Shown here: positions 12,979 to 57,923 of the stretch, piece by piece | Numbering within the stretch: position 1 is the stretch's first letter | Layout of the letters: each line of letters opens with the position of its first letter | NCBI GenBank assembly: GCA_963922205.1 | Contig: CAWUHX010000015.1 | Coordinates: 992,001 to 1,056,000 of the forward strand | Source: Romanomermis culicivorax | Lineage: Eukaryota > Nematoda > Enoplea > Mermithida > Mermithidae | Direction: 5' to 3' | Length of the DNA stretch: 64,000 bases | Translations under genes and position numbers: made by a program | Notes under the pieces: model-generated | Databases searched by the model: none | Seen by the model: the letters and a program-made list of their open reading frames with translations, nothing else | What the model was told of the DNA's origin: nothing

Positions 12979-14702
12979 AAAATTTCGATTGTGCCACGCT
13001 AGACCCACTGTCCCACTAGGCCCACCAGTTCAGTAAACCCAATGTCTCACTAGGCCCACCGAAAGTGTGTCATTAATCCCACCGGAATTCTCAGTAGACC
13101 CACTGCGTCGATCAGAGGTGTATCACTAGACCCACTACTAAATTTGTTGCGTTATTCCCAATGTCTCACATGGCCCACTAATAAAATTCGAGTAATGCAC
13201 AATATTTTTCAATCTTGGCGAAAAAATGACGTAACGACAGGGTGTGGCGAAGTGATCTGCTCGCTCCGAAAACCGAATTCCACACATGATCACGAACATT
13301 TGTTACCACCATCTTGTAGGGAATTCCATTCTGCGTTGAATGATGTATTTTGCATTACAGAAGTGCAAATATTGCATGTTTTATTGATAAAAAACAAAAC
13401 ATGTCCAGTTTTAGGAATTGTTCATCCTTTGGATCAAATTTGACGGTCTCAACCTTACATTTTATGGTGTTTAAGGTGCTTAATTAAGTTAAGCAATGTT
13501 CGGCAGTGAATGGGGCAATGAAAAAAGTAAAAATTCGCAAAAGTCACATTTTAAATTTTTTAAACATTTTTTCTCCTTTAATTTTTACTTCCTCATCAAA
13601 TGTCTCAGAAAACGGTGAACTACAACTACTACCAAGCATCATTATTCTCTTCTAGCTGCCTTCACAGAACTAAATGAAAGTTTGAAGCTGCATGTTATCA
13701 TTTATCCTGTCGAATTTGATAAATATGCTGAAAAATTGGAAATCTTGACTTCGTGCTCTGTTTTTGATGAAAAAACATTCAATATTTGGACATCTGTAAT
13801 GCCAGCTAAACCATTCAATGCAGAATTGAATTCGCTATAAGGTAGTGGTTACAAATTTTTGCGATCAAGTATGGAAATTGGTTTCTGGAGGGAACAGGTC
13901 ATTTCGCAACCCTTGTATCAATTGAACTGCTAGTCATTCTTGCACTATTGCCAATTTAATGAAACCATCATTGTTTGGTTTGGCATCAACTTTTTTTGTT
14001 CAAATCTGCCTTTTTAACGCATATCAATTAAAATAACTATCCAATTAAATGATACACATAATTCGCGTAATTTTGAATTTCTTCCAAAAGCAAATCATTA
14101 TTTGGATCATTTCCAATCCTATGCCGATTGTTGATGAAACCGGTTTTCGCATTTCTGAGATTTTGGTCAACAATTGCATAACGGCGTAATTCATTGCTAA
14201 TATTACTAACAAACGGATAATTTCGTGAAACTAACAAATAATACTACATCCAAAACTAAACACTACTACGAACATCTTTGTCATACCACGTATTATGCCA
14301 TTTTTGGACATGAGATGCTAAGTTTTTTTGGAAATCTTTTTTTAGATTCCTGACAAAGACCTGATTTGCATATTTGCTCGCTTGTTTCATAATGCTTAAC
14401 TCGTTGATTGTTATATAATGCTGAAACGGTCATGTTCCTTTGTATTTATATAATATTTCACCTGATTGAAAAATATTGCGCATTACTCGAATTTTATACT
14501 AGTGGACCATGTGAGACAGTGGGAATAATGCAACAAATTTAATAGTGGGTCTAGTGAGTCACCTCGGATTGGCGCAGTGGGTCTACTGAGAATTCCAGTG
14601 GGATTAATGACACCCTTTCGGTGGGCCTAATGAGACATTGGGTTTACTGAGCCGGTGGGCCTGGTGAGACAGTGGGTCTAGGGAGACGTTGCCAAAATTT
14701 CG
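12979..14702. mobile_element. DNA element with ~240-bp terminal inverted repeats
   Basis: The left arm, about 12979-13225, and right arm, about 14470-14702, match in reverse complement through the whole arm, for example CTCAGTAGACCCACTG on the left against CAGTGGGTCTACTGAG on the right. Each arm itself contains repeated GGCCCACC/AGACCCACT-type words spaced roughly 20-30 bp. Long arms, a 1.7-kb length and an internal FLYWCH-like fragment suggest a Mutator-like (MULE) or other foldback DNA transposon remnant. No intact transposase was found. Confidence 0.65.
13216..13305 (+). pseudogene. FLYWCH-like zinc-finger fragment
   Basis: The frame starting near 13144 contains a stretch with VTTGCGEVICSLRKPN followed by HDHEH. 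It resembles the second half of a FLYWCH zinc finger: a GEV strand, then N..H-x-H. The first, aromatic-Cys half is not readable here because that part is element arm. FLYWCH domains occur in DNA-transposon proteins and in host proteins derived from them. The fragment sits inside an inverted-repeat element, so it is best read as transposon debris. Recognition is by eye only and rests on about 30 residues. Confidence 0.35.
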
Positions 14703-15019
14703 TATTGAACACTGTTGTTTTGTACTTCACGAATGAAAAGAAATCGAGCACAAACTAAAATTTCCAGTCTGTTTTATTATTTATTGAATTCAGGATATCC
14801 AAATTCTATTATTGATTTTCAAGTATGCTCTGCTCAGCCATTCATGGAAATTATGTCTCAATGCAGTCTTTTAATCAAACGTTTCTAGATTTTTCATTCA
14901 TTACCCATTCGATCATCAACTCTCCATTTTTACTATGATCTATTGTCTTTTTCTTCAAATGCTTGTAATTATTGAGGATGGAAATCAAGTACTATTTCAT
15001 ATTTTTGCCATTTCCAAGT

Positions 15020-15023
15020 ACCC
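15020..15023 (+). repeat. Target-site duplication, left (ACCC)
   Basis: The four bases immediately before the 5' LTR equal the four after the 3' LTR. A 4-bp duplication is within the range for Ty3/gypsy integrases and supports one undisturbed insertion. Confidence 0.7.
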
Positions 15024-15557
15024 TGTCATGTGCCGACGGATTTCGTCGAACGTCATGTGATTCACATCACAATTTTCCATTACGTTTTTCGTTACGTTTT
15101 GTGTTACAGTAATTTACATCAATTTTGCGTTTCGTTTTTATACTTTTTACATGCAATTTATGTGTGTACTTTTTATGTTTATTTCTGTTGCTTTTACGCA
15201 CTCTTATTTCCGTTTCCATTTATTATTTTCAATCGCACACGTAGACTACGGTATGTACCCGCTAGTCAAGAATTTCCGTTAGAGATAAGCTCTCCGAGCT
15301 CATCGCTGTAATTAGAGCACAACGTGCACTTCTTATCAGTAAAAACTAGCGACATTTCGCAACGTGAAATGACTAGTTGGAAATTCTCACTAGTGACGTT
15401 CCTATGTTAAGCATGGAGAGTGAAAACTCGCCCCAATGCTTAACGTTGTGAACTGGAAAATGTCTATGTGATCATAGGCATCTTCTGCAACGATTTCCGC
15501 TGCAGAAGTTAGCTTGGGGAATGTTAACTCTGCCCAAGGCATACTGTAGTTTATGGA

Positions 15558-15572
15558 GCCCTTTAAAAGGGC
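15558..15572 (+). promoter_or_regulatory. Putative LTR core promoter (TTTAAAA in a 15-bp palindrome)
   Basis: GCCCTTTAAAAGGGC is a near-perfect palindrome and is conserved in the 3' LTR at 30357-30371. It contains a TATA-like TTTAAAA. A TCACTCATT initiator-like sequence follows about 25-30 bases downstream. Position within the LTR, about 140 bases before AATAAA, suits a U3/R boundary. Inferred from spacing only. Confidence 0.45.
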
Positions 15573-15698
15573 ATGTTTTGTCTTTTTGTCACTCATTATT
15601 GGGCCTAACTGGTTTTCGTCGTTTTAGCCTTACGTCACATTCGCCGTCGTCGATTTTGTTATATTTTGTTATTGTCAACTGCGTGTTGCCGTACGTCG

Positions 15699-15704
15699 AA
15701 TAAA
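15699..15704 (+). terminator. LTR polyadenylation signal AATAAA
   Basis: AATAAA in the 5' LTR, conserved in the 3' LTR at 30498-30503, where it would act on the element transcript. Confidence 0.5.
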
Positions 15705-16448
15705 TTTACATATTTTCGCCCCGGCCTACATACTCACATCACCTACAGTAACCCGACGGTAGGAACCCATCCCCGTCCCAGTTAATTGTAGAACCCCGTC
15801 GCCCCTTGCCGAGGAAATGTCCGCTACCGCCGCCTGCTGATCAGCAGCCGCCGAATCTCACGCCGAATCGCCCGGATTCCCATTCCCGTACATCACCGTC
15901 CGTAGGACCCCGTTCGACCCTGAACCCGTCGCCCAGCGCCGAGTAATTTGAGAAGAGGTGTCATAAGTCTTCTCAGGGGTTATTGTTGTTGAGGGTATAT
16001 TTGTGGGAGTCTCCCCTAAGCTAGTTTTCCCCCAGAAGGACCCTCAGTTAAGAAAGCCCTCAGACCTTTAAGGTCAGGGCCAATAAGGGGATTTAGGTTA
16101 ACAATCCGGTCCCCTACAGTACGCCATTCTTCGAATGGCACCATCCCCCATTCCGGTGAATGAGGATTAGGGATTGGCACCCCCGACCCGGCGGCGTTGT
16201 CCATTATTCTACAGCATTAACCCTAGGACAAGGCGGAGGTACACCATAGGTTTACCTGTGGTAGTACCAGCTGGGTTGGGTTCCCGAAGTAGATAAACCA
16301 AATGGAGCCACCCAACGGGGTCACAGCATGCCACTTTCAGTGACATGGCCATATTACCTTCGGGATGTGGTATGGGTTTCCCATCAATGTGACTGATCAC
16401 TACTTCGTTCAATGTGACATGGCTCCCCAATTCCTACCTAATGTGACA

Positions 16449-16466
16449 TGGCGAGGCTGGAAAATC
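16449..16466 (+). promoter_or_regulatory. Putative primer binding site
   Basis: Sequence directly after the LTR starts TGGCGAGGCTGG. A TGG immediately after the LTR is what pairs with the CCA end of a tRNA primer. The tRNA identity is not assigned. Confidence 0.5.
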
Positions 16467-17810
16467 GACCTTTAAGTCTGACTTCACAGTCCTTGGGAAC
16501 GAACCTTTTACCCTTTTGAGTGAGCTACCTCTTTCAATTGGGTAAACTTTCGGTTTGAGTGGGGAAACCTCCATCAGATCATGAGAATCACCACTTGAGT
16601 GGGGAAACCTCTCTCAGGTCTGCTGATTCGCATTCCGAGTGGGATCACTGATCCTTAGGATGAAATTTTTGCCCTCATGTAAGTGGATACGCCCGTAAGA
16701 AGGTACACTGCCCCTTAGGTCGGAATAGGCCCTTATATTCGAGTTTAACGCCAACTCAGATAGCACTGCATTTGAGTAAAATTTAATTACTGTAGGTCGG
16801 GATTTGCCCCACGTGTGATTAATTTAATGATTCTTGCGTGTAAATTAATGCCTTATGAGTATAGTAACTCCCTTAAGCTTTAATTCATCAACTGGTGTCA
16901 ATTTTTCCCCAGATTTGATCCCCAAGAGTCATAAAATCCCCAGAGTTGAGTAAATAGAGTATTCTGCCTAAATCTCCTCTGAGCTTTCATTTATTTTTTC
17001 TTTTCATTTTTTCTCAATTTGGGCCGCCATTCACTGTGTGTGATCAATAGGTTACTGTAGCGCCGTAGGCCTTTTGGTTACAGTAGGACTGCGATTTGCA
17101 CGTACTCTAACTACAGTATACCTGGGTACGGGTACTTGAGTATCACAGCCCATGAGGTTTTCACAGCCCCTGAGGGTTTCGGGATCTCCGATCAGGAGAT
17201 ACAGTACACCTTCCACTCTTGATTCTGGACGTCAAGTGTGGTCGTAATTTGTTATCTGTGTCTGGTATGTATGTCAACACACTTTTTCGAAACTTTTTCT
17301 TATCTTCACTGAGCACTTGCCAAGTTGCTCATTTTTCCGGCCAAACAAGCCAAAATTTTACTGTTGACACATATAACACCGTACTTCACATTGCTTATCT
17401 TTCGGGTCTCAAATTTTATTTTATTTACTTTACTTTTTATTTTTCTCGGTCTTCTATGCGGAGCGTGTGACCCAATTATAATAATTTTTCACCCAATAAA
17501 TTTTCTTATCTCAAAAATCAACCCAAATAAAAACTAATAACCCATTTTCCCCCTTTTTCTAACCAAACAAACAAAAAAAAATTTTTACCCTTTTTCCTAC
17601 CAAAAAACACACAAACATTCTCTTTTCTACTTCTATTCAAATTTATCAAAAACCAAAACTTTTTCTTCATTGGTCACACATACATCATAGTTGGCAACCG
17701 TTCAGTAGGTCATTTTTATTATTTTTTCCACTACTGCACGGTTTTCTTTTCTCTCCTTCTCTTCTGCTTCTAGGTAGTTGCACATGGTGGGGATCTTACC
17801 GATCGGGACC

Positions 17811-18660
17811 ACTGACGTCAGCAACAACTACTTATTGGGTTGTTATTATGAGGTGTTGTGTCTTGTGCGACCCCACCTCTGACGTCCGCAACTACCTCAC
17901 ATGCTGCTGTTGCACTGAGGCGTGACTTGCGAGGTCATGCCTCTGACGTCAGCAATGGCCGCATAGCATGTGGCCATTAAGGGGTTGATGGTTCTCCGTG
18001 TCCTCTCCCTCCATCTGCAACAGCTGCATCCCTTGCTGTTGCTTTAAGGGTTGGGTGGCCCTCCGGCTCTACCTCTGGCGTCAGCAATGGCAACGTAACA
18101 GGTTGTTATTGCGGGATGGTGACCGTATGGCACTGTCTTTCTGACGTCTGCAACAGCAGAGGCTCGTGTTGTTGCACTAGGATTGGTCGTCTATTCCGAC
18201 TTCAGTCCTTGACGTCAGAAACAACAATGCACCATATTGTTGTTCAGAGATGTGAGGCCTTACAAACCGCACATCTGGCGTCTGCAACAACTGCATCTCA
18301 TATCATTGTCGTAGGATAACTGACACTCAGCTATTACCTTTTGACGTCAGCAACGGCGATGCTCCGTGTTGTCGTAGCAAGGTTGCTGGCCTAGGGCCCT
18401 GTCTACTGATGTCCACAATGATAAGTCTCTATTCCAGTATCGGAATTAAGACTTTACGGTCTTATTCTGGCGTCAGCAATGGCCATGCCCCGTATTGCCA
18501 TAAGAAGTTTGTAGCCGTAGGCCCTTACTTCTTGGCGTACATACTGCAATATGAGATTAGGGCACACACATCCCAGTCACCTGAGGTCAGCACCGAGTGT
18601 GTGGTGGTGTATATCACATCTTTTGACGTCAGCACCGGGTTACTGTGGGTTTCCAAGATG
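17811..18660 (+). repeat. Tandem array of ~14 hairpin units with covarying stems
   Basis: Units of roughly 60-70 nt start with TGACGTC or a variant (TGGCGTC, TGATGTC), usually then AGCAA, at about 17813, 17880, 17944, 18013 (anchor lost, TCTGCAAC only), 18075, 18142, 18210, 18276, 18342, 18407, 18468, 18532, 18582 and 18623. After the anchor comes an inverted repeat whose sequence varies by unit: AATGGCC/GGCCATT (17954), GCAACAGC/GCTGTTGC (18016), AACAACAAT/ATTGTTGTT (18219), ATGGC/GCCAT (18479), CACC/GGTG (18590). Many units end in a second inverted repeat: GAGGCGTGAC/GTCATGCCTC (17917), AGATGTG/CACATCT (18248), AAGAC/GTCTT (18448), AAGAAGT/ACTTCTT (18502). Stems stay paired while the bases change, the mark of conserved structure. 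The last few units are weaker. Confidence 0.8.
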
Positions 18661-20485
18661 CCACTTGAGTTCTAGGTGTTGATTGGAGTATTACTTTCTC
18701 ACCTACGGCTCTTGTCTGAGGGTTGTGTCTGTGTGTCACTGGTGCCTCGGAAACATCAGTCAACATGCTCACGCAACCTGAGATGCACTCGGTCCGTGAT
18801 ACTGATCAAGTTGTCCGTAAGGGTAGCAGCACTGATGGATCAGCACGTGACTACTCTTTTAAGCTTTAACTGCAGGTTCGAACGGGTTTACACTCGGCCT
18901 CAGCTGGGTTGGTTGTCCAACATACGCAACCATTGGGCATTTGCAGTCAGTACTGCCTGTGTCTAACAACAGCAAGGGTTGACAACCTTCTTGTAAATTT
19001 CTTATCTAAATTTTCGCATTTCTTTCTCATCAATAATCTCCTTTAGTGTCCCCACCAGAATAATTCCTCAGGAATTACGGCACAGCCACTGGTTGGGCCT
19101 GAAGTGTAAAAGACCCCCCTGTATTCTTTTCTTCACACTCAAACGCCTTCATTAGCTGGCCTAATAATGTCCGCACTAGAGTCGCCCTTAATCCTGAGTC
19201 CGCCTCCATTGGTTTGTCCCTTAGCATAATATAACCGCTAGTCCGCCTAAGCGAAGGTGTTCGAGTCCGCCTAAACACATTACAACTAAGTCCACCTTAG
19301 CTCCTCACTTTACACTTATTTATTTGAGACAGACTGTACCCCTGATCTCAAGATGCATTGAGCCTAGCCTGGATTCATAGGAGGAAGCCTGCATTTCCCC
19401 ACCTCCACCTCTGGCACAGCTGGGCCAAGGACCCCCATGCCCTTTTACTGACTGAGTGTGTCAGAATAGCACCTTGGTACCTGGTGCTCTTATATCTCAA
19501 CTGGTGACCTGCGATCCTCACTTCATCTCAGTGAACAGAAACCCGGCCCCCAGCTGTATATAATACTCCTGGAGAGTTCCCGTTCTGTTCGAAACGCGCA
19601 TTCCCGTTTTGGGCACGGTTGTAGCATATACGCGAATGATGTCCTCCCGGGATCCTCCTGTCTAGTCATCACACTTTTCAGAGTTCGCAATTGCTCCTAG
19701 TGAGTGAGGCCGATTGCGTAATAGTGCGTTCCCCTTTGTGTAGTCTGGTTTGTAAACTAATTTTGTCCCTATCTATTAGCACCTACTAAGTTTACTTTAA
19801 GTTGTCCCCCTTTACTTATTAATTCTTAGGCTACTCCATGTGCTACTCCTGGTGAGTAGGACTTTGTCGGTTACGAGCCCTCCCATATCCCAAAGTTTGT
19901 AAACTAGCACACCGGACTTAACCTCCAAATAAAATTCCCTTTTGAGCAGGTTTATCCATACGTCCTCACGTCGATTCCTTAATTTTATGGTTGGAGTTCC
20001 ACCACTTTTATTCAAATTTATTTTACTTTTGGTTCAAATAACTGGGTCTTGCCCCATTCATCTCTAAAGTTTGGGTATAATTTTCCCTCTCTTTACACTT
20101 GGGTTATCCCCTCTTTAACTACGTAGGTGACCAGATAAATTCCCTTCTGAGTCAACCTATCTTTTCTTCTGGCTGTTCAGAGAGCTAAAACCTTGTTCTT
20201 TTCTAGCCCCATCGCTGAGTGGCCGCCAGACATTGTAAAGAACAAAAGTTACAGCCTCAACACGCCGTCGCGCAAACGATCTCGTACTTCCCGCGCTTCC
20301 TCGCCACGCGACTACAAAAGTAACTCTTACTTCACTTCTACAAAATAGAGACACCTAAACGTTCCTGTCGCCTTAGTACTAAGCTTAAGCAGACAAGTGA
20401 GCCCCTCTCTATTCAGTTTGATCGAATAACTTCACAGGCAAGATCATCAGTCTTGGACACCTTTCAGGAAGACGAATTCTCATCT

Positions 20486-21955
20486 ATGAAGTCAGAAATT
20501 GATTTACCTTCACAGATTGAGAATAAGGTCCAAGCTGCATTTGAGAATGCCCTTGGACCACTCAACCAAAAGCTGGAGGCTATGAATGGCAGAAGGCACC
20601 CTCCTGTGTCCAGCTTCATGGCCCCTCCTGCCTTTTCAGGTGCTTTTGGTGAGTCCATAATGGATTTTATATCCCACTTGACCCGTTTCTTTACACTTCA
20701 AGGGGTAACAGAAGCGGATCATGCATGAAAAATTGTGTTCTTGGAGTCTTGCCTCACAGGTCCTGCTCTGGCACCCTACTGGGACTTTAGCAGTGGTACT
20801 CCGCAGCCTACCCGCTACGAAGAGTTCACGGCTTTTCTTAGGAGAGACTTTCCAGTAGGGTGTGACTCAGATCTGCATCAGCAGTTGATTCAAGATCGCC
20901 TGCAGGAGCCGACTGAGTCCGCGATAGTCTACCTTGAGCACCTTAAGTGACTGTCCAGGGTGGCTTATCCGGATCTCACGACTGACGTTAGGGATTCTAT
21001 TAATAAACCTATCTTTCTGAGAGGGTTGAAACCAGTCCTTAGAGATAGTATTAAGTTCAGGGAGTTCACAACTCTTGAAGAGATTCTCAAAGCAGCCTGC
21101 TACGCGGAATCGCAGATTTTTCGGGATGAGATTAGGTATACTGCCCCATCTAATGCTGTTTTCTCTTCAGAACAAAGGACCGCCGACAACGTCAGGTCAA
21201 TGTTGAAGCAAAGGGGCACCGCTCAACATCCGTCGGTAACGCCATCCGATGAAATTCGATGTTTACAATCAGAGATGGCCCGGGTTACTACTCACGTTGC
21301 TCGACTTACGGCTCAGCAATCGGCGCCACCTCCGAGAAATTCGATGCCATCATCGACGCCGTGGACGCATGTCCAGACCGCCGGCGACCGCCCGTCAGGG
21401 GCACATTTACAGATGTGCTCCTACCATGGACGCTGCACCCACAACGACACTAATTGCCGGGCCCAACATCCCGATAGCGCCGGCCCTAGCACCGCCACCG
21501 CCACGGGCGCCAGCCATTGCTATTTTTGTCAAACGAGGGCGCACCCGACCGACCGATGCGACAGATCCTGCCCGCATTGCTGAAAGTTACGAGTGCACCG
21601 GGCTTCGGCCTGCCCAAACCGAAGTTCGACATTGCCTGGTGAGACTAATTGTGGTAATTCTAATTACTCTCCTCAGGGGGCAAGTGGAAATTTTCGGCGA
21701 TATGCTAATCCAACTCTTCACGGGACAGGGAACCAATATCGGTCACCCCCACGGCAAAATAATGCCGTAGGGGCTACCGACGGTCTTCTTCACCCAGATC
21801 TCTTTGATCTGGATGATGAAGTTCTGGCTGAACATCTGGCGGATCACTCACAACTGTGTTATCCTGTCTGTATAATCAGTATTGGGTTTTCAGCTGCCGC
21901 AGTGGTTTCGGCATCGACTCCGTCCTCAGCCTTTCCGCCGCGGCCACCGAAATAG
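20486..21955 (+). pseudogene. gag: gag-like polyprotein, interrupted by stops
   Basis: One reading frame runs through 20453-21955 with TGA at 20726-20728, 20948-20950 and 21581-21583, ending at TAG 21953-21955. The first in-frame ATG is at 20486; the frame is open further upstream without an ATG. The N-terminal part resembles a Ty3/gypsy capsid, with PPAFSGAF, then AFLRRDFP, then AYPDLTTDVRD and FLRGLK. The C-terminal part is Cys/His-rich with two clusters, CSYHGRC..C and CYFCQ...CD..CPHC, continuing past the third TGA to HRASAC; these are probably nucleic-acid-binding zinc knuckles. Each TGA sits where an Arg CGA codon would fit, so loss by C-to-T change is the simplest reading; stop readthrough cannot be excluded. 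The same frame carries on downstream with more stops toward 22148. Confidence 0.75.
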
Positions 21956-22203
21956 GCGACGCCAGTCAATGTAAACCCATCAACGACACCGAAAACGACT
22001 GGCAACATCAGCGTAATCGCGTAGTAGCGACTGACGGAAGGTACACCGGCACCTCCGGCACGTGTTATCAACCAGGGACTGCCGCCCGGAATTCCTACGG
22101 ACTCCGCATTGGAGGTCGTCGGTCAGTTGGAATTGATGAATCTGATAGGTAAACTACCTTCTTTTTCTGAAGTTTCAAATCTGGAAATCAGATGTCCTTA
22201 TAA

Positions 22204-22830
22204 GTCACCGGCTTTAACGATTTCTTGTTTACAGATTCCTCATCCGTCACCGATGTGATGCGGGCTGTTTGGTCAACCGATTTGGACAAAAAGTATCCGC
22301 ACCTCCCCTGGGTGCTACTCAACCAGCCGTTCGAGGTTGAGGCGCTTACGGCGGCTGACGTCATGCTATCGGCGCCAACAGTGTTGCGAGTTTTGGGGCC
22401 CGACGTCGCTTGACGGGCGCTCGAGTTCATCGCTGACGGAACTATTCGGGCCACTCCGGTGGACAAGATCCTGTTGGATGGTGAACCGTTGTCGCCAGCA
22501 GTGGACGCCGTCCGCCGCCCTGTGGAGGAGGCCAGTCGCAACGTGCGGCCCACAGCAGTTGTTGCTACGTCACCGACAACAACGACGACGGGAGCCCAAA
22601 CACTGGCGGCGATTGCGCAACAGCAACCGGTCGCCAACGCCTTCAGAGAACCGTTGCCCGCGGTTAACAACACCGTCAATGTCACCGAGGCATCGCCATT
22701 TCCGACATCAACCGTCCCGCGGTCCCCAAAGATTGGCGTTCTTCGAGAAGTCCACCCGTGCGGAGGCTTGGTCATCGACTTCCCCAGAGAGGAGCCCATG
22801 TCGTCCAACGATGATGACGTCGAAGAATGA
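22204..22830 (+). pseudogene. Accessory frame between gag and env, function unknown
   Basis: A frame distinct from gag and env, open from 22204 to the TGA at 22828-22830 except for one TGA at 22411-22413 (another CGA-like site). The first part looks like a folded segment ([40 protein letters not shown]). The second is Thr/Pro/Ala/Val-rich and ends in an acidic SSNDDDVEE tail. It has no early ATG; its start follows a good acceptor (TTTCTTGTTTACAG, ending 22234), and a matching donor (GATAG|GTAAAC) lies at 22149. Removing those 86 bases would join it to the gag frame. Its end overlaps the proposed env start by 20 bases. No family was recognised. It could be the C-terminus of a spliced Gag product. 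Confidence 0.45.
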
Positions 22831-24685
22831 AGTGGCCCGACGGGTGAAGACTGTAAATTTTGGTGTAAATTTGCAAACACCATTTGTAAATATTTTGTTT
22901 GTAATAAATTGGGCCTTCGTAACACTACTGTTCTTAGGAATGAGCTCTGCAACACATGCTACTCAATACCAATTTTGTGGTCTTTCAAGAAGCGGTCATC
23001 CACTTGAGTTACCTCAAAAAGTTGAATGCAAACCACCAAAATCTTCGTGGAGTCCACGACGCATGAATGTTACAGTATATGTACCTATTTCTGATCCAAT
23101 CACGACTAAAGCATGGAAATGTACCTTGCCAAATCCGAAGGTATGCACAAATACTGGTTTTCTCGGATCTAGGGGCATTACTGCAGACGTCATAACCACT
23201 CAGCATCTCGCGCCTGCAGCGTGTACACTGGCACATCGCACAAAGGTGTTTGGTTTACAAAAGCTCGTGGAAATACGTCCTGGCTTTTATAGCACTAACC
23301 AAACACTGGAGGTGATGTACTCATGGTGCTGCAATGACATCTGCAAGACAGTGACTAACCTCTTCATTGAGGAGGGACAGGTCGCTTCGTGGGATGGCAC
23401 TACAGCTCTAAGTACCTTAGGAGATGTAGGTGGATGCAGTTCCACTGCAGGTCAATGCACTACTCTTGACGGGGTAATTGTTTGGCCTGCCACAAATTTT
23501 ACGGCACTGTGTCATTATCGCCCACAGGGTAATTACACTGCGTCTGTATCAAGGAACCATATCATCATCGATGATTTGCAGGTTGCCCTGAAGATCCTGG
23601 GAGACTCTCGTGTGTTTTGGCTGTGTCCTGACCTCCGGCCGAATACAGTAAGAACGGATCAGGGTCTTCTTCTACGCATCCAGGGAAGATTTAATTTGAC
23701 CCAAAGGTTGTTCGGTTTGGCAAAGGACTCCCGTCCTGACCCCATCAATGCCAAACTGAATTACCTGGCTCAGCAGATCAGAGAGTCGGAAATTAACAAT
23801 TTTCGATTCATGTGGCTAGAGTTGTGTTCTCACGCTCAACGCTACCTTGATCTGACTTGGCAGTTGCTTCGTTTTGACCCTACACTAGGAGCCCGGGCAT
23901 TCCTTCAAAGGAACGATCTGACGGCGGAATTTACGGGTGAAGCACTGACGATATGGCCGTGTCAAGAGGTCAATGCCACTTATGTCTACCATTTGTACCA
24001 AGTGGGGGACACCTGTTACAAGTATCTACCCGTACAGGTTGGTGGTACCGTTTATTTTGCCACCCCCGGTGGCCCAGATCTCACTAAATTTAGCCCAAAG
24101 GTGCTGTGTGACCACCACTTTACAGGGATTTTCCGAAATCGCTCTGGCTGGTTTACCGAGCCTGGCATGGTCCATGTGAGCCACATTCCGCATGAGCTGT
24201 TCTGGAAACAGCGCTTCAACGTCACTCACTTTGACGCGCCTGCGCTCTTCCATGATCAGTTGGCGATGACCTCTTCAAGTTTTGCTTTCTTTAAACAGTA
24301 CATTTAGAAGACCGAGCAAATTGAAGCGGTCTTGAACCGGTTGGTAAATTATACTGCTGGTCTATCCCTCCAACCATATACTATCTATCAAGCGGTTGCC
24401 GGGGTAGGAACTGACATCAAATCCTCACTGGAAGGTGTTGGTCTGGCAGCAAACCATGTGATTACTGGCCAACAGCACAACCTCATGCAGGGCTTACAGT
24501 CTATTTTGAGTGGACCAGTGCAGTTGATCTTTAACACACTCATTGCCCTGGCAATACTGGCTGGTACAGGATTTCTCATCTACGTGGGGATCTCCTATTA
24601 CCTCAGTTACTGCCTGCGGAAAAGACAAGTTCGGTTTGTTAGCCAATACTCTCCATTGAACCTCTTCCTGAAAGTTCAACATTAG
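22811..24685 (+). pseudogene. env: Envelope-like glycoprotein, one in-frame stop
   Basis: The frame from ATG 22811 runs to TAG 24305-24307, then continues in the same frame to TAG 24683-24685, about 625 residues in all. Near residues 20-40 is a hydrophobic signal-like segment ([17 protein letters not shown]). The ectodomain is rich in cysteines, including a CC pair, and has about nine N-x-S/T glycosylation sequons. Past the internal TAG, a single long hydrophobic segment (LIFNTLIALAILAGTGFLIY and on) is followed by a short basic tail. Signal, glycosylated Cys-rich ectodomain, C-terminal anchor and basic tail together make an envelope protein. Which viral fusion-protein class it derives from was not determined. 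The TAG could be a CAG-to-TAG change. The ATG choice is by position after the accessory frame; upstream codons of the frame look non-coding. Confidence 0.75.
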
Positions 24686-25105
24686 GTAGGTTTTCATTAC
24701 GTACAGAACGATGTGCCAACTCAGTTAGACAGGATCACTCAGTGTTTGGTCGTACTAGTTGACCACAAGGAAACTCCTGCTTTCCTTGATACTGGTTGCC
24801 CACGGACTATCATTAGTCAACGCCTTCACAATGCGCTGATCAAAGAGAGTTGGAAGGTGGCGATGGCTTTCCAGCAACATCACGACTTTAACCCATTGAT
24901 GAGTATCAATGGTAAAGTTGTCCATACTCTCCTTTCAGGACCGTACGAGATCATGTTGCCTGGAACCCGTCAGCTACATACAAGAGTGAATATACATCTC
25001 CATGTGTGTAAGACTACGTCTCCTTTCTGGGCACCGGTCGATCTGATTCTTGGATTGGACTTTCTCGAACAATTCCAGAATATTACATTTGTGTCTGTCG
25101 ATTGA
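24686..25105 (+). CDS. First retropepsin-like domain (PR1)
   Basis: The frame continues directly from env (same phase) after its TAG and ends at TGA 25103-25105. It has the retropepsin active-site pattern FLDTGCPRTII about 25 residues in (from the first Leu-rich strand) and the later glycine motif DLILGLDFLEQF near its end, spacing normal for a single aspartic-protease monomer. There is no convincing ATG near its start, so expression would need stop readthrough, splicing or frame use from gag. Its stop overlaps the next frame by four bases (TTGA), where a shift of -1 would continue into PR2. Having a full protease-like domain here and another immediately after is unusual. Confidence 0.65.
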   Translation, partial: VGFHYVQNDVPTQLDRITQCLVVLVDHKETPAFLDTGCPRTIISQRLHNALIKESWKVAMAFQQHHDFNPLMSINGKVVHTLLSGPYEIMLPGTRQLHTRVNIHLHVCKTTSPFWAPVDLILGLDFLEQFQNITFVSVD

Positions 25106-26457
25106 ATGCGGTAGAATTACCCCTCCTTTTGACCACGGCTGAGATTGATCAGGTTGATCCCTGGTGGGAGAACACGCGTTCACTATCAAGGGCCTTGTTC
25201 CAGTCCGGGTCCCGATCAAGATCAAGGACATCGTCCATTTCTCGGCTACCCTCACGAGCTTCCTCCGTTGCCTCATCACCTGGGTCGACCAGAGGAAGCC
25301 GGACTTCTTCTAGATGGGCTAGTGGTCATTTTATGGCCAGGTCAGGATCAAACTGTCCTCGGCCCCCGCCTGGAAATTCTCCAGTTACACTAGAGAAAGG
25401 CCGGTTTCGCGAGCCTAGTGATTCTGATGCACCTGCATCCCCTGTACTAGAGGTGCCACCACTCTCTGATGCTGAGGTCGAATCACTAGGAGCTACTCAG
25501 AGCTCAGGAGAAAGATCAGATCATGTACTCACTGTTCAGGTCAATCCTACTCCTAGGACCAATCCGGAAACATTGGTTGGTTGTGCTCTGGTAGGATTAC
25601 TCAGACGCACTGGTTTGCCGATCCCGAAGCGAACCAATGCCCCAGAGTCGAGCTTTGATGACTCTGTGCCTGACCCAGGTCATGTCGTATCAGCTTTCTA
25701 CCCAACTGAAACGAGGACCCCTCATATCAAGGTTCTACTGAACAATTGGGTAGAGGCCAAAGCTCTAATTGATACTGGAGCAGTTTTCTCGCTCCTGGAT
25801 CACAAGTTGGCGGTCCAGTTACCCAACTTGGTACTCACAGAAACTAGGGCTCGCCCCATAGCAGCCAATGGGTCTCCGATTCTACTGCTAGGCGCTGCCT
25901 ATGTCACGGTGACAGTGGCTGATGTCTCTGAACGGATTCAAGTCCAAGTTCAAGAGAATTGCTCGGCTGAACTAGTCTTGGGGACGAACTTCCTCGGATG
26001 GTTCAATTGTGTCAGTTTGAACTGGGAGAAATCCTTTCTTCAGTTCAAGGAACTTCGAGTTCTGTGTGAAGGCCTCATCCACAATCCACCTTCTGCTCGT
26101 GGGGCACTACCATTGCAGGAATTGATTGTCCTTGAGCCTCGCTCGCTAATGCAATTCACTGCACCTGTACCTTCAATGTATGCAACTGTGCCCGAGGTAG
26201 CTTTCTTTCCTAAGCCTCTTTTGGGACAGCAACGCAATGTATACTTTGTTGGTACTGTGAGTACTGTGACCAATGGTCGCATACCCCTACAAGTAGTTAA
26301 CCCAAGTACACACTCAGTGGTTCTTTACCCCCACACGACCATCGGTCATGTGCAGATGCATACTGATTCCTCACAGGGATTGGCGGTCAAGTCTGATACC
26401 ATCCTTGACCGTAAGTGGGTTGAAGCCAATGCTGTGATATCTTCAGATATCTCCTAA
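25102..26457 (+). CDS. Ser/Arg-rich linker plus second retropepsin-like domain (PR2)
   Basis: A 451-codon frame. Residues about 30-90 are a Ser/Arg-rich stretch (SGSRSRSRTSSISRLPSRAS), followed by an acidic/proline-rich linker. Residues about 220-310 form a second aspartic-protease domain with ALIDTGAVFSLLD and ELVLGTNFLGWF; the second motif has Asn where PR1 has Asp. A roughly 150-residue spacer then leads to pol. The frame ends at TAA 26455-26457, but the same frame reopens at once into reverse transcriptase, so the stop looks like a CAA-to-TAA change or a readthrough site. Two protease domains in one element suggest a tandem duplication or a captured unit; a heterodimeric protease is possible but speculative. 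Confidence 0.65.
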   Translation: MNAVELPLLLTTAEIDQVDPWWENTRSLSRALFQSGSRSRSRTSSISRLPSRASSVASSPGSTRGSRTSSRWASGHFMARSGSNCPRPPPGNSPVTLEKGRFREPSDSDAPASPVLEVPPLSDAEVESLGATQSSGERSDHVLTVQVNPTPRTNPETLVGCALVGLLRRTGLPIPKRTNAPESSFDDSVPDPGHVVSAFYPTETRTPHIKVLLNNWVEAKALIDTGAVFSLLDHKLAVQLPNLVLTETRARPIAANGSPILLLGAAYVTVTVADVSERIQVQVQENCSAELVLGTNFLGWFNCVSLNWEKSFLQFKELRVLCEGLIHNPPSARGALPLQELIVLEPRSLMQFTAPVPSMYATVPEVAFFPKPLLGQQRNVYFVGTVSTVTNGRIPLQVVNPSTHSVVLYPHTTIGHVQMHTDSSQGLAVKSDTILDRKWVEANAVISSDIS

Positions 26458-28130
26458 CAGGATAAAGCAGCGTTGCTCCATCTGCTGGTCGCATTTACTG
26501 ACCTCTACACTGTTGATGAAAAGGACACAAGTTCCACTGACCTTGTGCACCATGAGATCAGTACGGGTGATGCTCCACCAGTCCGCCATTTCCCTTACCG
26601 CACCGCGCCCAAGGAAAAGGATCTCATCATACAAGAGGTCAAGGTGCTCCAGGAAAAAGGTATTATTCAGCCTAGCACTTCTCCCTGGGCTACTAACACT
26701 GTTCTGGTTCGCAAGAAAAATGGGTCACACCGGATGTGTGTTGATTTTCGTGGTCTTAACGAGGTTACGAAAAAGGACGTTTATCCTCTCCCACGGATTG
26801 ATGATATCCTCCACACACTCAAGGGTATGAAATACTTTACTACCCTTGATCAGGCTAACGCCTACTGGTCTATACCTATTGCTGAGGCAGACAAAGAGAA
26901 AATGGCGTTTAATACGCCTATTGGACTCTATGAGTTCAACTATCTGCCTTTTGGTCTTTGCAATGCCCCTGGGACGTTTCAACGCCTCATGGATCTGCTT
27001 CTCACGGGACTGCAGTGGCGCACTGCACTGACCTATCTTGATGACATCTTGGTGTTGGGGAACTCTCACACCCAGATGCTTGAGCACCTGATGGATGTGT
27101 TTACGCATCTCCGTCAGGGTGGAATGAAGCTCAGACTGAGCAAGTGCAAGTTTTCACACTCTGAGGTAGAATATCTGGGGTACCGCATCTCACAGAAAGG
27201 TCTCGAGCCGGATCAAGTCAAATTGGCTGCCGTCCAGGATTTACCCATTCCACAAAACGCTAAAGACATCAAGTCTTTTCTTGGTCTTGTGTCTTATTAT
27301 AGGCGTTTCATCCCTGGTTGCACTTGGCTCAGCGAGCCGCTGACCAAGCTCTTACGGAAGGAAGTTACCTTCCAGTGGTCAAAACCTCAGCAAGCGGCGT
27401 TCGACGAACTCCGAAGGCTGTTGTTGAACCCTCCTGTCCTGCGCCATCTGGACTTTACGAAATCCTTCATACTTCAAACTGATGCAAGTATTTTGGGGAT
27501 AGGAGCAGTCCTAAGCCAGTTAGACGAAAATGGACACGACCATCCTGTTGCGTACGCCAGTAGAGGGTGAACAGCAGCTGAGAAGAACTACACTATTACA
27601 GAGTTAGAGACTCTCCCTGTTGTCCATTTTGTTAAGCACTTTCAGCCTTACCTCTTTCAACATGAGGTGGTCGTCCAGACCGACCACACTGCTGTTAAGG
27701 CTGTGTTAGAAAAACCGAACCCTTCGTCCCAGATAGCTCGGTGGGGCCTCGCGTTAGCTGAATTCAAACTGACTATTCGGCCGCGAAAAGGTCGGTCTAA
27801 TGGTAATGCCAACGCATTATCACGCCTTCCTGATCCTAATTCCCTTGCCGGGGAGAGTATTGACGATATTCCCCTATACAGACCCGAGGGAGAAGTTATG
27901 ATGATATCCGACGGTGCGCAGCACCTGGCGAATTCATCCCAAAGGACCACCAATGGTGTGCAGCACCTGGCCAGGTCTGAGTCTTATGCAGAGATATCAC
28001 AAGATGCGCAGCACCATGACCTTCTCACAACTCAATTTGAGGATCCGGAAATAGCCTCCATTCTTAGGTCACTAAAACCCTACGGTGATCAGAATGATGT
28101 TAATGGCTACCACCTGTTGGATAACATCCT
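26458..28130 (+). pseudogene. pol: Reverse transcriptase - RNase H (pol)
   Basis: Same frame as PR2. RT motifs in order: KKNGSHRMCVDFRGLN, TTLDQANAYWSIPI, YLPFGLCNAPGTFQRLMD, the catalytic YLDDILVLG, then YLGYRIS and the thumb/connection SFLGLVSYYRRFIPG. RNase H follows with ILQTDASILGIGAVLSQ, then TGA at 27568-27570 in place of a residue just before TAAEKNYTITELE, then VVQTDHTAVKAVLE. The order and wording are Ty3/gypsy, not BEL/Pao or Copia. The frame is lost at about 28130, where coding sense moves to another frame by a one-base indel, probably a deletion in the CTTCAAAAGTGG stretch. Confidence 0.85.
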
Positions 28131-29363
28131 TCAAAAGTGGAGTCCAACAAGATTGTTGTCCCTCGATCAATGGTTACTACCATTATTGAGGCTCACCACA
28201 ATGACATTCTTGCTGGACACTTTGGTGCGAAACGTACCGCGAGGCTTATCACCCGCCGGTACCACTGGCCTTCCCTCAGTGCAGACGTCAAGTCCTTTTG
28301 TCAGTGGTGTGATCTTTGCCAACGGAATAAACCCGCAAGACAAAAGACCTGTGCAACTCTGAAACTGATCTCCATTACGGGTCTGTTTCACTGAGTCGGT
28401 GTCGACTGTATGGGACCAATGACCAGTAGTTAAAGTGGAAACCAATTTATTGTAGTCTTTATAGACTACTTTACTAAATGGATCAAAGCTTTCGCTACTC
28501 CGGACATCACTGCGCAAACCATAGCTCGACTCTTTATTACACAAATTGTCTGCAGACATGAGGCACCACAGATTCTTCAGTCTGATCGTGGTACTGATTT
28601 CACGTCCAAACTGATGACTGAAATCACTGCCATTTGTTCAACTAAGAAAATCCACTCCACCGCTTATCATCCCATGACAAACGGAGAAGTGGAGAGAGCT
28701 AATCAAACGCTAGCTACACGGTTACGTATGTATGTCCACCAAGGTCACACTGATTGGGATGAACACCTGCTGTACTCTGTGTTCGCTGTCAACATCAGCA
28801 TGAATGAGTCCACAGGGTATTCACCCTTTGAGCTCATGTATGGTCGTACACCCATGCTCCCTGTTGATGCAGCGCTCTCATTCAACCCTCCGGCTCATAT
28901 CATAGATGTTTCTACTTATGATATGGAGGTCAAACGGCATTTTACAAATGCTCTGACCTTGATCCAGAGCAGAATTGAGAGATCACAGGCGGCTTATGCT
29001 AGGTCCTACGACCGCATGGCACGAGATGTCTCTTACAAAGTTGGGGATCAGGTGCTCAAACTGCCCACCACCGGAAAACGTTTTCTAACGCCCAAACTAT
29101 TGCCCATTTATGATGGACCCTACTTTGTCATGAATGTGGCATATCCCAATGTCACTATTCGACTTGAGACTGAACAAGAAGATACTGTACATGTCAACCA
29201 GCTTAGACGCTGCGTGTCACCTGCTCAGCATACAGAAGAAGATGAGATACCTTCCACTACGAAGGTCATGGAGACGGCACCTTTGTTGATTCTGTCAACA
29301 AATAGAGATTTTACACAAGATCTCATTGACCCACATCTTGATGCAGAGGTCTCCTACTTGTAA
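28131..29363 (+). pseudogene. pol: Integrase with GPY/F-type tail (pol)
   Basis: Continues pol after the shift. The zinc-binding HHCC region includes AHHNDILAGHFG and CQWCDLCQRNK. The DDE core is visible: VDCMGP (first Asp), SDRGTDFTSKL (second Asp), NGEVERANQTLA (Glu). A C-terminal PIYDGPYFVMNVAYPN matches the GPY/F module of gypsy integrases. Stops interrupt at 28392-28394 (TGA, CGA-like) and 28431-28433 (TAA). The stretch from 28434 to 29363 is uninterrupted and ends at TAA 29361-29363. No env gene follows; it lies upstream of protease instead. Confidence 0.85.
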
Positions 29364-29821
29364 TCAAGTAGCTCTTCTCTTCTTTACTTATGGACGGGGT
29401 CGTCCTTTTTCGAAGGACTGCCATGCCCTACAGAGTACCCACTCCTGTCCCATGCTGGGATAGCAGTGTAAAGAAGAGAATGAGCAGCGATCAATGCGTC
29501 TAAACTAGGTATTTCGTCACATTACAGGCACATCCGTGCGATAGCCTATACCTTGCCTCTAAAATTTTTCTTTTAGTCTCGTTTCAGATTTCACAAATCA
29601 ACCGACAATTGGCAACTTCACCGAAGGGATCAAATGACGTCAGCAACTTCACGCATCTCCAACCGACGTCAGCAACTCCACGCAACATTGACACAATTTC
29701 ACAAACCAGAATGCACCGAAAAACCACTGGACCATCGACCGCTCGCCATCACCATCACCTGAAGGTTTGACCCCCACAGACGCGCACAAGGACGAGGACG
29801 CCCTTTTTCGAAGGACCGCCA
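29364..29821 (+). other. Retroelement 3' non-coding tail with repeated leader word
   Basis: Non-coding. It contains TGACGTCAGCAACTTCACGC at 29635 and CGACGTCAGCAACTCCACGC at 29664, the same anchor word that opens the leader hairpin units, but here spaced 29 bp and without the long stems. A second internal repeat, CTTTTTCGAAGGAC(T/C)GCCAT, occurs at about 29407 and 29803, the latter abutting the 3' LTR. These may mark reverse-transcription or packaging signals, or past recombination. Confidence 0.6.
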
Positions 29822-31248
29822 TATCACGTGCCGACGGATTTCGTCGAATGTCACGTGATTCACATCACAATTTTCCATTACGTTTTTCGTTACGTTTTGT
29901 GTTACAGTAATTCACATCAATTTTGCGTTTCGTTTTTATACTTTTTACATGCAATTTATGTGTGTACTTTTTATGTTTATTTCTGTTGCTTTTACGCACT
30001 CTTATTTCCGTTTCCATTTATTATTTTCAATCGCACACGTAGACTACGGTATGTACCCGCTAGTCAAGAATTTCCGTTAGAGATAAGCTCTCCGAGCTCA
30101 TCGCTGTAATTAGAGCACAACGTGCACTTCTTATCAGTAAAAACTAGCGACGTTTCGCAACGTGAAACGACTAGTTGGAAATTCTCACTAGTGATGTTCC
30201 TATGTTAAGCATGGAGAGTGAAAACTCGCCCCAATGCTCAACGTTGTGAACTGGAAAATGTCTATGTGATCATAGGCATCTTCTGCAACGATTTCCACTG
30301 CAGAAGTTAGCTTGGGGGAGTGTTAACTCCGCCCAAGGCATACTGTAGTTTATGGAGCCCTTTAAAAGGGCATGTTTTGTCTTTTTGTCACTCATTATTG
30401 GGCCTAACTGGTTTTCGTCGTTTTAGCCTTATGTCGCATTCCCAATCGTCGATTTTATTATATTTTGTTATTGTCAACTGCGTGTTGCTGTACGTCGAAT
30501 AAATTTACATATTTTCGCCCCGGCCTACACATACTCGTCGCCCTACAGTAACCCGACCGTAGGAACCCATCCCCATCGCCGTTAATTGTAGAACCCCGTC
30601 GCCCCTCGCGGAGGAAACATCCGCTACCGCCGCCTGCCGATCAGCAGCCGCGGAATCTCACGCCGAATCGCCCGGATTCCCGTTCCCGTACATCGCCGTC
30701 CGTAGGACCCCGTTCGACCCCGAACCCGTCGCCCAGTGCCGAGTAATTTGAGAAGAGGTGTCATAAGTCTTCTCAGGGGTTATTGTTGTTGAGGGTATAT
30801 TTGTGGGAGTCTCCCCTAAGCTAGTTTTCCCCTGGAAGGACCCTCAGTTAAGAAAGCCCTCAGACCCTTAAGGTCAGGGCCAATAAGGGGATTTAGGTTA
30901 ACAATCGGGTCCCCTACAGTACACCATTCTTCGAATGGCACCGTCCCCCATTCCGGTGAATGAGGATTAGGGATTGGCACCCCTGACCCGGCCGCATTGT
31001 CCATTATTCTACAGCATTAACCCTAGGACAAGGCCGAGGTACACCATAGGTTTACCTGTGGTAGTACCAGCTGGGTTGGGTTCCCGAAGTAGATAAACCA
31101 AATGGAGCCACCCAACGGGGTCACAGCATGCCACTTTCAGTGACATGGCCATATTACCTATGGGATATGCTATGGGTTTCCCATCAATGTGACTGATCAC
31201 TACTTCGTTCAATGTGACATGGCTCCCCAATTTCTACTTAATGTGACA
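29822..31248 (+). repeat. 3' LTR
   Basis: 1427 bp, direct copy of 15024-16448. The first bases read TATCACGTG rather than TGTCATGTG, so the terminal TG has mutated to TA, while the end TGACA is intact. Upstream there is no long uninterrupted polypurine tract, only the purine-rich AAGGACGAGGACG near 29789, so the plus-strand primer is uncertain. Confidence 0.9.
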
Positions 31249-31252
31249 ACCC
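31249..31252 (+). repeat. Target-site duplication, right (ACCC)
   Basis: Matches 15020-15023. The pre-insertion sequence would have read ...CCAAGTACCCGTACGTCG.... Confidence 0.7.
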
Positions 31253-44225: not shown

Positions 44226-44592
44226 TGTTATATAGGGTACAGTCTCACTTTGGCGCCCGTCTCATTTTGGCGCCCGTCTCACATTGGCGCCCATCTCACT
44301 TTGGCGTCCGTCTCACTTAGGCGTCCAACGTTGTAGGCGCCAAAGTGAGACTGCTGTCTTACTATGGCGCCCGTCTCACTTTGGCGCCCATCTCACTTTA
44401 GCGCCCATTGTTTAATAATGACTTTTCTCGGATGTCCTAACCTGGCTTCCGTCTCACTTTAGCGCCCATCTCACTTTGGCGCCCAAGCTGTGCCTCACTT
44501 TGGCGCCCATCTCGCTTTGGCGCCAGTCTCACTTTGGCGCCCGTCTCACATTGGCGCCCGTCTCACTTTGGCGCCAATCTCACATTGGCGCC
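44226..44592 (+). repeat. 17-bp tandem array, GTCTCACTTTGGCGCCC
   Basis: About 15-18 copies of a 17-bp unit, with small variations (CACATTGG, TTTAGCG) and one unit inverted near 44335-44355. The same unit appears in reverse orientation at 45366-45482 and in degenerate form at 62505-62640. GGCGCC is itself palindromic. Confidence 0.85.
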
Positions 44593-45061: not shown

Positions 45062-45365
45062 CGATGGCTAATCGTTTCATTTTTTTCTTTTTGAGCAAAT
45101 AAAAATGATCCGGTTTAACTCTATTTTCACAAACAAAAATTAACATTTGACCATGCAAAGATAGGATAAAGCGAGCTTCCTCTAAATCAGCTATTTTAGT
45201 TTCATGAAAGCCTTTTTATTAAGTGAAGTTAAGCAGGATAACTGATTATTTTATTTTCCAATATTTAGAGATAGAGAGCTATTCAGGGTGGCCTGAGCTA
45301 TTTATAGCCACTTGTAAAACAGCGCGTAAAATTTGCACGTTGCTTGTTCATTAGGACATAATGGC

Positions 45366-45482
45366 CAAAGTAGGACGTGTGCCAAAGTGAGACGGGCGCC
45401 AATGTGAGACTGGCGCCAAAGTGAGATGGGCGCCAAAGTGAGACGGGCGCCGAAGTGAGATGGGCGCCAAAGTGAGACACAA
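45366..45482 (-). repeat. 17-bp tandem array, reverse arm
   Basis: About six units of GGGCGCCAAAGTGAGAC, the reverse complement of the array at 44226. The flanks on the outer sides are also alike (GTTATATAG.G.ACAG near 44210 and CGTTATATAGTGGGACAG near 45485), so the arrays look like arms of a single composite structure or a shared insertion. Confidence 0.8.
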
Positions 45483-57915: not shown

Positions 57916-57923
57916 GATGTGTC

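Follow-up and report, generated by a model that had tools for sequence, protein, structure and literature searches.

A tandem array of covarying hairpins in the leader of a Ty3/gypsy-type element of Romanomermis culicivorax

Layout of the array and its host element

The stretch analyzed here (the window) comprises 64,000 nucleotides of the nematode Romanomermis culicivorax (GenBank assembly GCA_963922205.1, contig CAWUHX010000015.1, positions 992,001 to 1,056,000 of the forward strand), and all positions below are those of the window. At 15024-31248 lies a Ty3/gypsy-type long terminal repeat (LTR) element of about 16.2 kb with an env-like gene, and the 3.9-kb leader of this element, which runs from the end of the 5' LTR to the gag-like open reading frame (ORF), carries in its middle an array of 14 tandem units (Table 1). 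An earlier reading of the window (the original prediction) had described about 14 such units at 17811-18660, with stems that change sequence in step; we confirm this array, with its anchors where they had been placed, and the inverted repeats quoted as stems are present, second stems included. By the comparisons reported below, the array is non-coding, shared, and structurally constrained.

Each unit consists of a TGACGTC-like anchor followed by hairpins A and B; 11 of the 14 are well formed and three are degenerate. With up to four mismatches to the 12-mer TGACGTCAGCAA allowed, 12 anchors (0 to 3 mismatches) were matched between 17813 and 18624; two degenerate units, near 18010 and 18532, were located by visual inspection, and the analyst chose the end of unit 14. 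Units 1 to 9 are 64 to 68 nt long and the next four 61, 64, 50, and 42 nt, with units 12, 13, and 14 starting at 18532, 18582, and 18624. The self-complementary sequence TGACGTCA, of the kind seen in retroviral-type dimerization signals, is exact in 5 of the 14 units. The original prediction of one shared anchor holds in part: an anchor is present, but it comes in two kinds that alternate in units 1 to 9. Similarly, the predicted hairpins are found in units 1 to 11 but are weak in units 12 to 14. Tandem Repeats Finder at its default score did not report the array.

Table 1 Features of the element and its leader array. F1 is the family of the window's element; F2, F3, and F4 are the further families described in the text.
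Feature	Position	Strand	Remarks
5' LTR	15024..16448	+	1425 bp; 96% identity to 3' LTR; CA terminus
Primer binding site candidate	16449..16468	+	TGG..., immediately 3' of LTR
Array	17811..18690	+	14 tandem units, each with anchor, hairpin A, and hairpin B
Unit 1	17813..17879	+	Odd, anchor TGACGTCAGC; counterpart in F4 loci, none seen in F2 and F3
Unit 2	17880..17943	+	Even, anchor TGACGTCCGC; B stem GAGGCGTGAC/GTCATGCCTC
Unit 3	17944..18009	+	Odd; A stem AATGGCCGCAT/ATGTGGCCATT; F2 counterpart GCAACAACAAC/GTTGTTGTTGT
Unit 4	18010..18075	+	Even, degenerate anchor; A stem GCAACAGC/GCTGTTGC
Unit 5	18076..18141	+	Odd; A stem GCAATGGCAAC/GTTGTTATTGC, two G-U
Unit 6	18142..18209	+	Even
Unit 7	18210..18275	+	Odd; 9-pair A stem
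Unit 8	18276..18341	+	Even; A stem imperfect in F1, F2, and F3
Unit 9	18342..18406	+	Odd; four G-U pairs in A stem
Unit 10	18407..18467	+	Anchor class varies by family
Unit 11	18468..18531	+	B stem AGAAGT/ACTTCT, in F2 and F3 AGGGGT/ACCCCT; anchor class varies by family
Units 12-14	18532..18690	+	Weak hairpins; colinear with F2 and F3 counterparts of 50, 45-46, and 66 nt
Conserved non-coding leader block	18699..18998	+	0.77-0.84 to F1; conserved above most of array
Second conserved non-coding leader block	19449..19898	+	Sequence conserved above most of array
Putative splice-donor-like site	19842..19861	+	GCTACTCCTG|GTGAGTAGGA; 20-mer with GTGAGT, 3' of array
gag-like ORFs	20324..21583	+	20324-20728 and 20951-21583; CX2CX4HX4C motif CYFCQTRAHPTDRC
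env-like ORFs	22259..24685	+	Pfam Monjiviricetes_fusion, 1e-14
Protease region	24686..26457	+	Two DTG-type ORFs
Reverse transcriptase and RNase H	26458..28362	+	RVT_1, 4e-35
Integrase	28434..29363	+	rve, 3e-7, 31.1 bits; slightly under Pfam cut-off of 32.6
3' LTR	29822..31248	+	Target-site copy ACCC directly after

Copies and related families keep the array

All copies and families considered here come from this one genome. With the array as query, the best 40 of 995 candidates were scored, the window's copy among them; all 39 other F1 copies cover at least 833 of the 850 array bases at 94 to 96% identity with few indels. To avoid selecting copies by the array itself, we also chose them by two flanking 22-mers (17210-17231 and 18777-18798). 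The one before the array had 100 exact matches among those listed (388 counted with up to two mismatches), and the one after it 64 exact matches among those listed, on contigs C1-C111 (288 counted). Among the matches listed, at least 29 copies, the window's included, have both 22-mers within 4 kb, and in 26 of the 29 (25 of the 28 others) their spacing lies within 65 bases of the window's 1567; the remaining three are shorter, with spacings of 1492, 1374, and 859.

A genome search for two consecutive exact anchors, a pattern absent from the window's own array, had 369 matches as against 0 for the control; through these we reached three further families: F2 (L082, L072, and L075, the loci aligned for it), F3 (L074 and L071), and F4 (L073, L100, and L101). 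F2 and F3 were compared with F1 over gag, env, protease, and reverse transcriptase (RT), and F4 over gag and the leader. At the amino acid level, F2 and F3 are 81 to 89% identical to F1 in RT and 68 to 71% in the env-like protein (pieces fetched, L083 and L084; 68 to 77% for the env-like ORFs as a whole set of comparisons), while gag pieces of F2, F3, and F4 loci are 68 to 93% identical; by these comparisons, F2 and F3 are in one clade with F1. The tree groups F1 with F4 and F2 with F3, and the families are counted as four despite this grouping. All 14 units are common to F1 and F4 (L100), and the 12 recognizable units of F2 and F3 are colinear with units 3 to 14, including the odd lengths of the last ones. 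Within F3, 40 scored matches, the query included, cover nearly the whole array of that family; most of 40 F4 matches cover at least bases 1 to 577 of a 647-base query, L073, which is itself internally deleted.

Kinship to arrays of 51-nt repeats that share TGACGTCAGCAA (L041, L064, L066, and L076-L081) was rejected, as these code for 17-residue repeats (read in L079). In L079 the repeats stand in an open frame at 1404-2255; they belong to another multi-copy family, and we take the 12-mer TGACGTCAGCAA that it has in common with the array as a probable coincidence. Anchor-pattern matches in viral contigs (L097-L099) proved, on inspection of their surroundings, to be three isolated single matches.

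Unit halves pair with their own partners

Fixed-offset halves of units 1 to 11 were paired with the halves of their own and of other units. On the plus strand of the window, own halves gave -10.8 kcal/mol versus -7.9 kcal/mol for other units' halves in hairpin A (p = 0.0012) and -10.9 versus -6.8 kcal/mol in hairpin B (p = 0.00005); the same preference was seen on the minus strand (p = 0.0155 and 0.00005 for A and B). It recurred in F2 (A, p = 0.028; B, p = 0.003) and F3 (A, p = 0.058; B, p = 0.020) and was not significant in the F4 copy L100 (A, p = 0.48; B, p = 0.21). Decay after insertion is a likely, though not proven, reason for the result in L100, because F4 matches are more diverged from their query copy (80 to 88% identity) than are those of F1 (94 to 96%) and F3 (92 to 95%).

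In a register scan, 19 odd units were 89% paired at one register and 16 even units 80% at another, the A stems pairing best at register 46 (odd units) or 43 (even units). Most other registers were paired at about 0.2 to 0.5, with secondary peaks to about 0.8 at 3-nt slips because the arms are triplet-like (RRY/RYY, where R is a purine and Y a pyrimidine).

Covariation exceeds phylogenetic nulls

At the level of units, the changes in each column were re-placed on the unit tree in 2000 simulations, for which the lowest possible p is 0.0005. Units 12 to 14 were left out of the unit alignments, and this test further excludes unit 10 in all families and unit 11 in F2 and F3, with F4 represented by units 1 to 6 of L073 only. 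The A hairpins of 25 odd units (register i+j=46) had a covariation score of 0.445 against a null of 0.157 ± 0.050 (z = 5.7, p = 0.0005). In 19 even units (register 43), pairing was 0.81 against a null of 0.41 (p = 0.0005), and the pair types were ordinary (p = 0.24).

At the level of families, 171 hairpin pairs of a structure taken from F1 were counted on seven sequences and compared with 500 shuffles; F1 cells favor this structure because it came from F1. Of the 1135 cells, 81.8% were paired (shuffles, 78.9 ± 0.4), and compensated two-sided changes were found in 29 pairs (17.7 ± 2.6) and 47 cells (23.1 ± 3.8), with a covariation score of 0.232 (0.185 ± 0.007); none of these four values was reached by any of the 500 shuffles. 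The number of further pair types was unexceptional (203/500 shuffles). When partners were slid by 1 to 3 columns, 35 to 51% of cells were paired and only 3 to 11 two-sided compensated pairs remained. A tree-based null for the whole array across families, which expects 16.9 two-sided pairs as against the 29 observed, was exceeded with z = 4.4 for pairing, 3.9 for two-sided pairs, and 4.9 for cells. These covariation tests are not independent of each other. In unit 7, the A stem is paired in 100% of cells over the seven sequences, and 5 of its pairs have changed on both sides. RNAalifold on five sequences (F1, F4 twice, F3, and F2) predicted 251 pairs, 44 of them with kept two-sided changes, and to its total of -197.8 kcal/mol covariation contributes little (-1.76 kcal/mol). 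With plain minimum free energy (MFE) folds the outcome varied with the family that supplied them; those from F1 remain paired through 22 of 30 two-sided changes in F3.

The original prediction held that change of sequence with pairing retained implies selection for the fold. Because covariation exceeds the phylogenetic nulls and because the array persists in other copies and in three diverged families, selection on the array's fold beyond shared descent is supported; it seems to be the fold as such that is important for the element.

Strand

The hairpin search weighs G-U and A-C equally, so that the strand was not prejudged. With this symmetric scoring, the stems read on the plus strand contain G-U and A-C pairs at 30/11 in F1, 18/8 in F3, 15/9 in F2, and 10/5 in F4 (the families are not independent). 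The pairing probability of the A stems on the plus and minus strands is.49/.27 in F1,.55/.37 in F3, and.43/.21 in F2. These figures suggest, if weakly, that the array acts as plus-strand RNA, which we consider probable.

Two classes of anchor

Anchor classes were counted in seven loci (L101 and L073 left out). In units 1 to 9, all odd anchors (29/29) but few even ones (2/22) have A at position 8, and a C directly precedes every even anchor (22/22) and 11/29 of the odd ones. The odd anchor GACGTCAG and the even anchor CTGACGTC are complementary over 8 bp, two even anchors over only 6; the two classes can therefore pair, and RNAalifold pairs an odd anchor with the next even one in units 3-4, 5-6, and 7-8. 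This complementarity is equal for either neighbor or for another RNA molecule, so an anchor-anchor joint within the array is hypothetical, and the two classes may simply descend from an ancestor with two units.

Other parts of the leader

Coding by the array was rejected, as there are stops in all frames and no clear 3-periodicity; changes between F1 and F3 by codon position number 76/67/92 in the array and 19/19/53 in gag. The F1 leader contains 39 ATGs, 18 of them inside the array, and its first 32 bases show 97% identity in three F2 loci. The 20-mer with the donor-like site (at 19852) is the same in all four families, each represented by a single copy, and an acceptor-like TTCTAG lies near 20206. 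The stretch TGACTGAGTGTGTCAGAATAGCACC at 19449-19473 is identical in four families and forms, with its preceding base, a small hairpin CTGAC/GTCAG (TTGAC in F3). At 18875-18884, in a conserved stretch, the window has GGTTCGAACG where the other three families have GGTTTGAACG; we take the former to resemble an RNA polymerase III B box. A search of 4227 Rfam families, including Xrn1-resistant RNA (xrRNA) and internal ribosome entry site (IRES) families as curated, gave no matches up to E = 1 over 16500-32500, and two chance-level matches up to E = 5 over 14500-20500, both outside the array.

The element and its surroundings

From its LTRs, target-site duplication, and domain order, the element is of Ty3/gypsy type (Metaviridae). 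The duplication ACCC stands on both sides (5' copy at 15020-15023), and domain searches gave the order protease, RT, RNase H, integrase, the integrase match falling slightly below the Pfam cut-off; RT was assigned by domain and homology searches. Two RT matches (P0002 and P0028), with 64% and 67% identity over 80% and 62% of the query, indicate that the element has relatives in other species. The window's copy is degenerate, with stops interrupting its frames. We rejected Troyka (PMC12440569) as the element's identity: in the part of that article available, its LTRs end in CG...CG and it is without env. A search for the RT in viral contigs gave 5 pattern matches, none of them confirmed.

The gag-like ORFs had no match in Pfam. 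A Monjiviricetes-type fusion glycoprotein gene, env-like, is placed between gag and protease, an unusual position for a Ty3/gypsy-type element. Residues 220-682 of the env-like ORF, searched against the protein collection, had 3814 candidates and none at E = 1e-3, and the PDB gave only a weak match (9jli_A, E = 0.48). Two consecutive ORFs (24686-25105 and 25012-26457) each carry a DTG retropepsin-like motif, the first below Pfam cut-offs, and are possibly two protease domains in a row. Just 5' of the 5' LTR is an inverted repeat (12980-13214 and 14464-14700) with 207-nt arms that are 87% complementary and 1.3 kb apart. Elsewhere in the window are the RNase H part of another retroelement (57181-57951, minus strand) and 17-bp tandem repeats at 44242-44592 and 45364-45478, whose units seem related in opposite orientation (GTCTCACTTTGGCGCCC and GCCAAAGTGAGACGGGC).

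Proposed function of the array

The original prediction had offered genome packaging or dimerization, Gag binding, translation entry, or repeated DNA-factor sites as roles. Our preferred reading, with a probability of roughly 40%, is that the array acts in cis as a multivalent RNA scaffold to which Gag binds and through which the RNA dimerizes. In each unit a self-complementary anchor would be followed by two small hairpins, and the anchors would pair over 8 bp with a neighbor or with another RNA molecule. The repetition would itself be the function: many copies of anchor plus fold would offer a multivalent landing site to a zinc-knuckle Gag, which would nucleate on the genomic RNA while the anchor palindromes serve genome dimerization. 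The stem sequences could drift freely as long as each arm pairs with its own partner. Gag binding and dimerization are only inferred, from the position between the primer binding site and gag, the self-complementary joint, a fold that is repeated over sequence, and the precedent of Ty3, whose genomic RNA dimerizes via a short 5' palindrome (PMC11381356). Covariation and position point here to a structured RNA that lies, as a packaging signal would, between the primer binding site and the gag-like ORFs.

Several observations weigh against the scaffold. The true packaging signal could lie instead in the two leader blocks whose sequence is conserved above most of the array, and the array lies upstream of the conserved donor-like site and so would not, alone, mark unspliced RNA. 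Anchor-anchor pairing has two-sided changes in 2 of 37 pairs, a number reached by 161/500 shuffles (covariation score, 16/500), the anchors hardly varying in sequence; and local folding has no preference for either neighboring anchor (.28 versus.29 in F1). The covariation score of the even-unit A hairpins is only suggestive (p = 0.07). MFE folds from F3 and F2 keep 14/25 and 17/31, respectively, of the two-sided changes in F1, a lower share than that kept in F3 by folds from F1. As to the strand, the A stems of F4 favor minus (.22 plus,.25 minus), even units have a slight edge in pairing there too (.80 plus versus.85 minus), and minus-strand folds are also stable in places. F3 folds projected on F1 give 21 G-U and 21 A-C, and changes between the window and 39 young F1 copies give 123 G-U and 86 A-C; part of the G-U bias may be mutational, because these changes are also G-U-rich. 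Finally, the alternation of anchor classes breaks at units 10 and 11 in F2, F3, and F4 and is kept there in the window alone: unit 10 has A at position 8 in the F2 and F3 loci (5 of 7), and unit 11 has C or T there in 6 of 7.

This last point bears on a stricter version of the scaffold, a novel modular RNA in which odd and even units, clearest as pairs in units 1 to 9, would form a concatemer of pairs of about 132 nt with paired anchors and with hairpins made orthogonal by compensatory drift, acting as a multivalent assembly scaffold in the genomic RNA. That the anchor classes fall out of step at units 10 and 11 counts against it, and we hold it to be tentative and rather doubtful.

Alternative explanations

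The leader ATGs, nearly half of which lie in the array, make plain scanning to gag unlikely, and a structured leader could instead take ribosomes past upstream starts by internal entry or shunting; standing upstream of the donor-like site, the array could be present in all mRNAs. The leader may, however, be spliced or another promoter used, no Rfam family matches the array, and 14 repeats are, to our knowledge, atypical of known IRESs, so we consider this role unlikely. Repeated multivalent folds would also fit cooperative binding of a host or element protein in nuclear export or RNA stability, as in Rev-response or constitutive transport elements, and a Caenorhabditis elegans LTR element needs its own protein to export its genomic RNA (PMC10309623), which we count for this possibility; no conserved protein site was identified and the array lacks an Rfam match, and we regard export as rather improbable. 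Highly improbable is a role against RNA decay or silencing, whether as an Xrn1-resistant block or as a decoy for Dicer: if anchors pair, a unit pair would make a three-way junction loosely like a flavivirus xrRNA, but nothing in Rfam matches the array and stems of 5 to 12 bp are short for Dicer.

Two explanations do without an RNA function. The anchor core is the CRE (cAMP response element) palindrome, and the array might be a set of DNA-level factor sites, of bZIP/CRE or insulator-like kind as in the Drosophila gypsy insulator; that insulator is a precedent (PMC2374998) for a degenerate tandem array in such a leader, the element being of gypsy type and having env. Spacers between DNA sites would evolve freely, yet here they covary as stems; full TGACGTCA is confined to the 5 units named above; and DNA sites predict none of the anchor classes of units 1 to 9. 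Because of the rarity of the exact sequence while the stems covary, DNA-factor sites are the least favored role of the original prediction, and we judge them improbable. The array might also have no function, being an old tandem duplication of an inverted repeat kept by descent alone. In keeping with this, all families are in one genome, slipped registers of the triplet-like arms pair by composition, and L100 is without preference for pairing in cis. Two-sided compensated changes between families nevertheless exceed phylogenetic nulls that keep column rates, and array length is stable among copies, which makes absence of function very unlikely.

Significance and comparison with known systems

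The packaging and dimerization signals of LTR retrotransposons are poorly defined, those of Ty3 being described as "not precisely defined" (PMC11381356), and the array is relevant there. With the fold kept and the sequence lost, it offers many natural variants of one motif in one RNA, so that bases that are read can be told from those that merely fold, and multivalent RNA scaffolds can be put to the test on it. The array further indicates that leader regions can house large RNA structures under selection.

Among the articles listed in searches of the open-access literature, we found no LTR-element leader with such a tandem array, consistent with what the original prediction had supposed. Retroviral and Ty leader signals comprise one to a few hairpins. 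The array is like those of retroviruses, Ty1, and Ty3 (HIV-1 DIS [dimerization initiation site], Ty3 PAL6) in its place in the 5' part of the genomic RNA, close to gag and the primer binding site, in being structured, and in having short palindromes; it differs in its 14 repeated units with up to 28 predicted hairpins and in a palindrome at the unit joint instead of the loop. With its 12 Su(Hw) sites, the insulator in the 5' untranslated region of Drosophila gypsy (PMC2374998) is likewise tandem and degenerate and stands in the leader of a gypsy-type element that has env, but it consists of clustered DNA sites in AT-rich sequence, whereas the spacers of the present array are covarying hairpins. 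The multiple packaging signals of single-stranded RNA viruses (PMC3662417, PMC5431903) share with it many short RNA contacts and a common motif; they are dispersed over the genome, while the array is one tandem block with putative Gag contacts. Anakin, a mosquito element with a chuvirus glycoprotein (PMC7642597), is also an LTR element with a captured Monjiviricetes-type glycoprotein, but it belongs to BEL-Pao and the array's element to Ty3/gypsy; the word "leader" is absent from the main text of that article. For none of these nearest precedents is it certain that the array works alike, and we regard it as a variant of cis-acting leader RNA.
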